From assembly GCA_000472185.1 (NCBI GenBank), contig AVDB01000004.1, forward strand, positions 186,001 through 250,000: a DNA stretch of 64,000 bases. The letters run 5' to 3'. The notes under the pieces were generated by a model, which saw only the letters and a list, made by a program, of their open reading frames with translations, had not been told where the DNA came from and ran no database searches. The position numbers and the translations under genes were made by a program. Origin of the DNA: Rhodobacteraceae bacterium HIMB11. Lineage in GTDB: Bacteria > Pseudomonadota > Alphaproteobacteria > Rhodobacterales > Rhodobacteraceae. Shown one piece after another: positions 61,288 to 62,322 of the stretch. How positions within the stretch are numbered: the stretch's first letter is position 1; every line of letters begins with the position of its first letter.

Positions 61288-61848
61288 TTATCCGAAATTC
61301 GAGCTGAAAAACTTGATAGATCGATAAATGTAAAGCGCAATTACCATAAAGAAAAATGCCCCTGCAATGTCGCCAATCAAGTATCCAAATACACCCGTGA
61401 GAAAGTCGCCATCAAAGTTCAGTAAGGCGAGTGCCGCACCATTTAAAATCGACATAATTGCAGACATAATCAGCACATTAATCCACGTATTGGTGATGAA
61501 TTTGTCGGACTTAATTCGGTTCACCATGGTAAATAACACATAGCCCAGGTAGCAGGCTGTTACACTTGCTAAGGGGCCAAGTGGGTGTAGTTCAAGGTCG
61601 CTGCCATAAACGGTGATAAACCAAGTTAAGTATGAAGCGGGTAACAAATGTATGAATGCTCGCGCGCCAAGGTAGTGAAACGCCACAGCCCTTACGCCGT
61701 GTGGCAAGAACAATAATCCTATCACAGCAAGGCTTTCTGCCGCTATGATTTGTTGAATTGGAAAGATGAATCCCAAGGTTAGGGTGTACATAACCAAGTA
61801 TGTCATATTGACAAGAAAAAACTCGGTCCAAAAATTTTGCTGCTTCAA
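61288..61848 (-). CDS. Hypothetical multi-pass membrane protein, partner of winged-helix gene
   Basis: 186 residues with about six hydrophobic segments (for example MTYLVMYTLTLGFIFPIQQI at 15-34, ALALLNFDGDFLTGVFGYLI at 140-160). Short loops carry few charges. It resembles sensor-type membrane domains such as MASE1 or VanZ-like only in general look; I recognise no family. It overlaps the winged-helix gene by ATGA, so the two are translationally coupled and probably act together. Confidence 0.55.
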   Translation of the reverse strand: MKQQNFWTEFFLVNMTYLVMYTLTLGFIFPIQQIIAAESLAVIGLLFLPHGVRAVAFHYLGARAFIHLLPASYLTWFITVYGSDLELHPLGPLASVTACYLGYVLFTMVNRIKSDKFITNTWINVLIMSAIMSILNGAALALLNFDGDFLTGVFGYLIGDIAGAFFFMVIALYIYRSIKFFSSNFG

Positions 61849-62147
61849 CGAAGTCTGCCTAACGATGTAGATATGGCGAGTGAGTAGGCGCCGTGTTGGT
61901 TTTGAGATTTCGAAATTTTATTGCGAACTTCGAGCTTCTTTATTGCTCTGAAAATAGTTGCTCGTCCAATTGACGCCACCAGGTCATGTTGCAAAACAGC
62001 TTGCGTTTTTGCTGTTTCAAACTGATTACATAGATCTGAAATGGCCAAAAAAACTTTTGTTTCAACATCACTCAAATCCGATAATCCAAGATCATTCTCC
62101 ATCTTTTGAAGAAGAAGTTTAAAACTGATGAGTGCTTCGTGCGCCAT
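61845..62147 (-). CDS. Small winged-helix DNA-binding protein
   Basis: 100 residues. DVETKVFLAISDLCNQF, then VLQHDLVASIGRATIFRAIK with helix-turn-helix character, and KLEVRNKISKSQNQHGAYSL as the wing; similar to MarR-like or replication-initiator winged helices. It may control its own operon: a GTATCA-TTT-TGATAC palindrome lies inside the upstream promoter. Stop and start overlap (ATGA) with the membrane gene. The RBS is weak, so translation may be regulated by the leader. Confidence 0.6.
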   Translation of the reverse strand: MAHEALISFKLLLQKMENDLGLSDLSDVETKVFLAISDLCNQFETAKTQAVLQHDLVASIGRATIFRAIKKLEVRNKISKSQNQHGAYSLAISTSLGRLR

Positions 62148-62204
62148 GGTGAATTCCGATCATGTGAGTTCAGTCTTTCTACATGAAAAAAAATCAAATT
62201 GAAA

Positions 62205-62261
62205 TAAAAAAGACCCCGCGCGAACGCGGGGCCGCTTTGAGGTGCTAAAATCACATTTTAG
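62205..62261 (-). ncRNA. Short terminated leader or small RNA
   Basis: Downstream of the promoter at 62291-62322 the minus strand has a 7-bp hairpin CTAAAAT-GTG-ATTTTAG (62261-62245), then CCCCGCG-TTCG-CGCGGGG (62231-62214) followed by TCTTTTTTATTT. This is a complete intrinsic terminator about 60 bases before the winged-helix gene, so most transcripts would end as an RNA of roughly 80 nt. Confidence 0.55.
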
Positions 62262-62290
62262 GGACATACCCCACTATAACTACTCACACT

Positions 62291-62322
62291 CTGTATAATG
62301 TATCAAAATGATACTTTGTCAA
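62291..62322 (-). promoter_or_regulatory. Promoter with internal palindromic operator
   Basis: TTGACA (62322-62317) and a -10 candidate TATACA (62297-62292, spacer 19) on the minus strand. Between them GTATCA-TTT-TGATAC (62314-62300) is a perfect 6-3-6 palindrome, well placed for repressor binding. A TATAAT also reads on the plus strand at 62294-62299. Confidence 0.5.

Follow-up and report, generated by a model that had tools for sequence, protein, structure and literature searches.

What is controlled by a promoter that carries a palindrome, is followed by a short terminated leader, and stands before two overlapping genes for a small winged-helix (wHTH) protein and a small membrane protein? 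This arrangement is found on the minus strand of the window, by which we mean the whole stretch of 64,000 nucleotides analysed here (Table 1). A sequence-only reading had proposed an autoregulated switch in which a membrane sensor and a DNA-binding protein would be produced by readthrough of the leader, possibly with the participation of a regulatory RNA. The analysis reported here leads us to favour, with a probability of roughly 0.6, a reading in which the wHTH protein would be a repressor, the membrane protein a MASE1-like sensor, and the leader a trans-acting small RNA (sRNA) which shares its seed with a core RNA encoded elsewhere in the genome and would have the mRNA of an NYN-domain gene as its target.

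Table 1. Features of the minus-strand locus, with positions numbered within the window.
Feature	Position	Strand	Basis
Leader/sRNA promoter, sigma-70-type	62295..62322	-	10/12 consensus match; kept in congeners G001 and G002
-35 box, TTGACA	62322-62317	-	16-nt spacer to -10
-10 box, CATTAT	62300-62295	-	
Operator palindrome GTATCA-TTT-TGATAC (GTATCAAAATGATAC), predicted wHTH site	62300..62314	.	inside promoter spacer
Predicted ~80-nt terminated RNA (leader/sRNA)	62206..62288	-	promoter and terminator; kept in G001 and G002
Seed GUGAGUAGU	62279..62287	-	at predicted RNA 5' end; only 8 copies genome-wide
Intrinsic terminator GGCCCCGCGUUCGCGCGGGGUCUUUUUU: 9-bp GC stem, UUCG loop, T run	62206..62233	-	stem kept via paired changes in G002
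100-aa winged-helix protein (MarR/IclR-like wHTH), recognition helix GRATIFRAIKK	61845..62147	-	relatives match HTH_IclR/MarR_2
186-aa integral membrane protein, stand-alone MASE1-like, ~6 predicted segments	61288..61848	-	profile matches of relatives; hydropathy

The earlier description of the promoter region was borne out. The palindrome, GTATCATTTTGATAC, does lie in the minus-strand spacer of the promoter, which has the top score in the region, tied with one other; it occurs once in the window and in none of 100 shuffles, and perfect copies number only three in the 3.1-Mb genome (reversed-pattern control, 0). The two hairpins described downstream, the second an intrinsic terminator, also hold: the leader, whose 5' end was inferred from the position of the -10 box, folds into one irregular hairpin followed by a strong terminator, and a 153-nt stretch gives z = -3.1. 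In the congener G002, the promoter, the operator (with one substitution), the leader, and the terminator are all kept, the terminator stem by paired C-G to U-A changes, and G001 retains a perfect operator although its wHTH and membrane genes both carry stops. Both congeners read ATGAGT (AUGAGU) at the position of the leader seed and retain UGAGU(A/G)GU. The terminated transcript looks like a real RNA.

The two other perfect operators of the window genome (G000) were located outside the window. One (L132:1290-1515; G000:C3:187696) is followed by a further short RNA that ends in a terminator; in it, ACUCCUCAC comes close to being complementary to GUGAGUAGU of the window leader. This operator and its RNA are absent from the congeners G001-G003. 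The other (L136:1457-1515; G000:C7:134320) lies about 45 bp upstream of a gene for a 118-aa lipoprotein-like product. A large operator regulon found no support, few extra sites being present above the reversed-pattern control. Just past the T run of the terminator, and nearer to the wHTH gene, TCAATTTGA (62194-62202, minus strand) resembles a weak operator core (TCA-N3-TGA) and is kept in G000, G001, and G002.

The wHTH and membrane genes overlap by 4 nt, the latter beginning with a TTG (the start chosen in the sequence-only reading) that overlaps the wHTH stop codon. The statement that neither product has a known family is correct for the window proteins taken alone, for which Pfam and NCBIfam searches gave no convincing match, and does not extend to the membrane family as a whole. 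In 23 of its 60 members a match to MASE1 (PF05231) was obtained at E<=0.1 (best E value 1.3e-8; none for the window protein), so that "stand-alone MASE1-like domain" is the best name for the membrane protein; it has no second domain and no fused GGDEF or kinase output, and its hydropathy peaks are consistent with a multi-pass topology. Relatives of the wHTH protein show weak matches to HTH_IclR (30 of 57) and MarR_2 (23 of 57), the best at 2e-4 and that of the window protein at 0.11. Searched with a membrane-protein profile, 63 of the 397 genomes of the family (Rhodobacteraceae) contain homologs, and the wHTH gene adjoins the membrane gene in 58 of the 60 loci read, mostly in the same direction, in some convergently or divergently. 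The distance matrices of the two proteins are correlated (r=0.60; permutation maximum, 0.25), and the wHTH protein is rare outside the family (3 of 289 genomes of the class, besides the window's own). No conserved third protein was found among the neighbouring genes. By these comparisons the pair is a co-inherited, real module.

Some copies of the pair are carried on plasmids and annotated as hypothetical. The window genome has a second pair (L041:2733-3674, G000:C1:377720; also L053), convergent and overlapping, which adjoins a divergent gene for a predicted exported protein. A third wHTH paralog (L274:1435-1818; G000:C2:337543) is located upstream of a LysE-like transporter gene and has no MASE1-like partner.

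High-scoring operators (score of at least 9) are present upstream of the wHTH gene in 33 of 60 loci, compared with 0.3% of shuffles, about half of the family loci having no recognisable operator. They fall into two main classes, GTNTCA-N3-TGANAC and TTNTCA-N3-TGANAA. An Arg in the recognition helix (SRPT/GRAT-type) accompanies G:C in 20 loci and a Gln (AQAT-type) accompanies T:A in 13 loci, with no exception among the classed loci, these counts ignoring kinship. G:C for Arg and T:A for Gln is the base preference expected of those side chains. Given this conservation of the palindrome, and given that the outer base pair tracks one residue of the recognition helix, the wHTH protein very likely binds the palindrome. 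A palindromic operator is present at the protein's own promoter, and the site tracks the recognition residue. Of the proposed autoregulated switch, the link between wHTH protein and operator, the conserved pair, and the regulatory RNA are retained; the role of the leader in cis is not supported as a general rule.

The evidence on this last point comes from other genera. At 31 loci, an RNA was found on the other strand, transcribed divergently to the pair (29 of the 60 loci have no divergent GUGAGU RNA). It consists of a hairpin whose loop is the invariant hexamer GUGAGU, followed by a linker and an intrinsic terminator. Compensatory changes are seen in 8 of the 11 pairs of the terminator, and hairpin 1 outdoes shuffles of the flanks (median 3 of 100). 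The operator half-site nearest the RNA reads TTGACA in most of 29 loci and the distal half never does, and a -10 of the form TANNNT follows at a spacing of 16 in most subfamily-1 loci; the operator covers the -35 box of the sRNA, which suggests repression. Since the RNA is divergent in these genera, cis attenuation cannot be the conserved function, and the readthrough leader is unsupported as a general rule. The RNA is better read as an sRNA gene, and it was its codirectional placement in the window genus that gave it the look of a leader. Readthrough into the pair is possible within the window's own genus.

Whether the window leader belongs to this sRNA family is a separate matter. It has the opposite orientation with respect to the pair, and its seed is at the 5' end, not in a hairpin loop. 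The leader is conserved in the congeners G001 and G002; the covariance model of the divergent GUGAGU sRNA (R1) did not recover the window leader at E<=5. The GUGAGU seed adjacent to the operator is nevertheless present in the window as GTGAGTAGT (62279-62287), 12 nt from the operator, and the divergent RNA of L086 has a spacing of 10 nt between operator and GTGTGAGT, identical to that of the window leader. Membership would thus rest on seed, position, and operator. A target within the pair's own mRNA was ruled out, ACTCAC being nearly absent there.

The complement of the sRNA loop, CACCACTCACG, was also observed between the stop codon and the mRNA terminator of several genes (L220, L233, L203, L222), one of which looks like rpsI; these are candidate 3'UTR sponges or targets. 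In L048 (1773-1875, minus strand; a genome of the family Rhodobacteraceae), Rfam PYLIS_3 (RF02510) was matched at 40.6 bits, above the gathering score, and is unrelated to the sRNA.

A search for the loop complement revealed a second RNA with GUUCCGUGAGUGGUGGC, located between a LuxR-type gene, whose product has autoinducer-binding and GerE domains, and the convergent tsf gene. GTTCCGTGAGTGGTGG, with at most one mismatch, is found in 113 of 199 family genomes searched, many of them without the pair, and is syntenic with luxR-type and tsf genes where read. Among the pair-bearing genomes compared, this core RNA is present in 16 of 16 with the GUGAGU sRNA and absent in 6 of 7 without it (Fisher p 7e-5, in a test which ignores kinship). 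The core RNA of the window genome reads GUUCCGUGAGUAGUGGC (L260), the same word as in G003, and its seed is identical to the leader seed of the same genome. Its locus is L260:1395-1700 (G000:C6, near 104832), others being L200, L256, and L257. A conserved palindrome-like GGTAAGGAWTCCNTACT, about 52 nt before the GTTCC of the core RNA, may be where the neighbouring LuxR-type protein binds. The suggestion of a regulatory RNA is supported; what the sequence-only reading had missed is the recurrence of its seed in the core RNA, and an NYN-domain gene as a likely shared target.

The case for the latter was built by pattern searches of the genome. The sites ACTACTCAC/GTGAGTAGT number only 8 in the 3.1-Mb genome (reversed-pattern control, 22); one is in the core RNA, one in the window leader, and one in the 5'UTR of a gene with an NYN domain (E=3.5e-40), where GCCACTACTCACGGAA complements the core RNA perfectly over 16 nt and ACUACUCAC is complementary to the leader seed. 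ACTCAC (ACUCAC) is present in 33 of the 34 NYN 5'UTRs read, about 40-60 nt before the start codon, compared with 2.8% of shuffles, and 85% of its copies are predicted to be unpaired, the figure for other hexamers being 35%. In all four species of the window genus the NYN UTR contains ACTACTCAC, while nearly all other genomes have a C before ACTCAC. Seed and target have changed together in this genus, with GUGAGUAGU in the core RNA (G000, G003) and ACUACUCAC in the NYN UTR (4/4 species). In 28 of 28 module-bearing genomes the sRNA has a perfect complement of 7-14 nt in the NYN 5'UTR of the same genome, and such own pairs are equalled by only 3 of 5000 permutations, or by 50 of 5000 once the window genus is left out. 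When the NYN 5'UTRs were folded to a consensus, no aligned covariation emerged, and in a stem test the pairs spanning the element did not exceed shuffles in most genomes and were not significant; presentation of ACUCAC by a hairpin is suggestive only. The NYN-domain gene, which encodes a putative RNase, is a likely shared target of both RNAs. The trans role of the window leader in particular would rest on its 9-nt seed and on the genus-specific match.

We propose the following pathway. A dimer of the wHTH protein would bind the operator, of either class, for which the comparative evidence is strong. Being positioned over the -35 box or the spacer, it would repress the promoter of the sRNA and, probably, the wHTH gene itself. 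The co-encoded and co-evolving MASE1-like protein would presumably relay a membrane or extracellular signal and thereby release the wHTH protein, after which a terminated RNA of about 80-100 nt might act in trans through its conserved seed, GUGAGU(G/A)G. Since the core RNA between the LuxR-type gene and tsf carries the same seed, both RNAs are predicted to pair with ACUCAC upstream of the NYN start codon, and the NYN gene would be regulated in consequence, be it positively or negatively. In the window genus the sRNA is codirectional with the pair, and hence would appear as a terminated leader. An extended version, in which the accessory MASE1/wHTH module feeds signals to the core RNA circuit via its core-seed sRNA, both RNAs touch the ACUCAC element of the NYN mRNA (often predicted to sit in a hairpin loop) loop to loop, and seed and target co-evolve while the modules pass between genomes, is more tentative, and we would place it somewhat short of even odds.

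The leader could instead be a cis attenuator, mostly terminated, in which regulated readthrough controls the wHTH-membrane operon and the RNA has no trans role. Such an arrangement would suit the window genus, where the terminator (kept in G002) sits between the promoter and the genes and where the interval from the terminator to the wHTH gene yielded no other good promoter on the minus strand. Against it, the RNA is transcribed away from the pair at 31 loci in other genera and cannot attenuate the operon there; no competing antiterminator structure was identified; and the 5' word GUGAGUAGU recurs in one RNA and is complementary to one mRNA, both of them unlinked to this locus. We consider attenuation as the whole function unlikely. 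A somewhat better chance, albeit still a small one, is given to the view that the window leader and the divergent sRNA are not related, so that only the pair and the operator are homologous and GUGAGUAGU occurs by chance. The failure of the covariance model and the differences in structure and orientation speak for it. A chance origin is harder to reconcile with there being only 8 GUGAGUAGU/ACUACUCAC sites in 3.1 Mb, the leader, the core RNA, and the NYN 5'UTR among them, with the retention of UGAGU(A/G)GU in G001 and G002, and with the operator spacing shared with L086.

Hairpins that bind proteins likewise typically combine an invariant loop with variable stems, and GUGAGUGG might accordingly be a protein-binding motif, the RNAs being decoys or sponges and the NYN 5'UTR matches reflecting something else. 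What is conserved in 33 of the 34 NYN 5'UTRs, however, is the complement ACUCAC, not the motif itself, and in the window genus this element and the core-RNA seed have changed in step, which makes the sponge reading decidedly improbable. Least credible, to a point where we give it hardly any weight, is a toxin-antitoxin or defence system composed of a membrane effector, a wHTH antitoxin, and the sRNA. Its patchy distribution, small genes, and occasional plasmid copies would fit; but PADLOC, PHROGs, and phage records gave nothing convincing, the MASE1 domain serves in sensing, no complement to the sRNA is conserved in the mRNA of the pair, and G001 carries stops in both genes. The reading we prefer, a repressed trans-acting sRNA that shares the core-RNA seed, would offer a concrete functional hypothesis for three items that are either annotated as hypothetical or left unannotated: a stand-alone MASE1/wHTH pair present in about one sixth of Rhodobacteraceae-family genomes, an sRNA family absent from Rfam, and the core RNA adjacent to tsf, which occurs in more than half of the family genomes searched. 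It also points to a target, the NYN-domain gene, whose 5'UTR element is conserved almost universally, and can be tested directly by swaps of seed and target. If true, an accessory module has gained access to a core circuit of post-transcriptional control through a copy of its seed, and the window genus shows a matched change of seed and target.

The trans-acting sRNAs of R. sphaeroides include PcrZ, SorX, SorY, and CcsR. As in R. pomeroyi, of the same order Rhodobacterales (PMC4809877), the RNAs described here are short, terminated, and intergenic. Among these sRNAs, those of R. sphaeroides being considered by name, none was identified with this GUGAGU hexaloop or a link to a wHTH-MASE1 pair. 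MppG of R. sphaeroides (PMC4263372) was checked and is unrelated, and searches of the literature on MASE1 with sRNA or wHTH, NYN with sRNA, and tsf/luxR sRNAs gave nothing relevant. At the gathering score, the leader, the divergent sRNA, and the core RNA are all without a match in Rfam (chance matches only). What we describe is likely a sensor-to-sRNA module, previously undescribed, which employs a core RNA's seed a second time; its parts are a protein pair without annotation and RNA families not in Rfam, while an autoregulated transcription factor combined with an sRNA, and sRNAs sharing a seed, are known. The multi-pass MASE1 domain, found in DgcE/YegE of E. coli and in some histidine kinases, provides the sequence match for the membrane family; unlike those signalling proteins, it stands alone here, with a separate wHTH gene as partner in place of a GGDEF or kinase output. 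With autorepressors of the MarR/IclR type, the wHTH protein shares a putative winged-helix core, a palindromic operator over its own promoter region, and an autoregulatory layout, but it has only about 100 aa with a short N-terminal extension, scores below the Pfam cut-offs, and is genetically coupled with both a MASE1 partner and an sRNA. Qrr and OmrA/OmrB are redundant sRNAs which share one seed. The present case resembles them in that two RNAs have a seed in common and are predicted to share a target; it differs in combining a core RNA with an accessory one, the two being under unrelated regulators.
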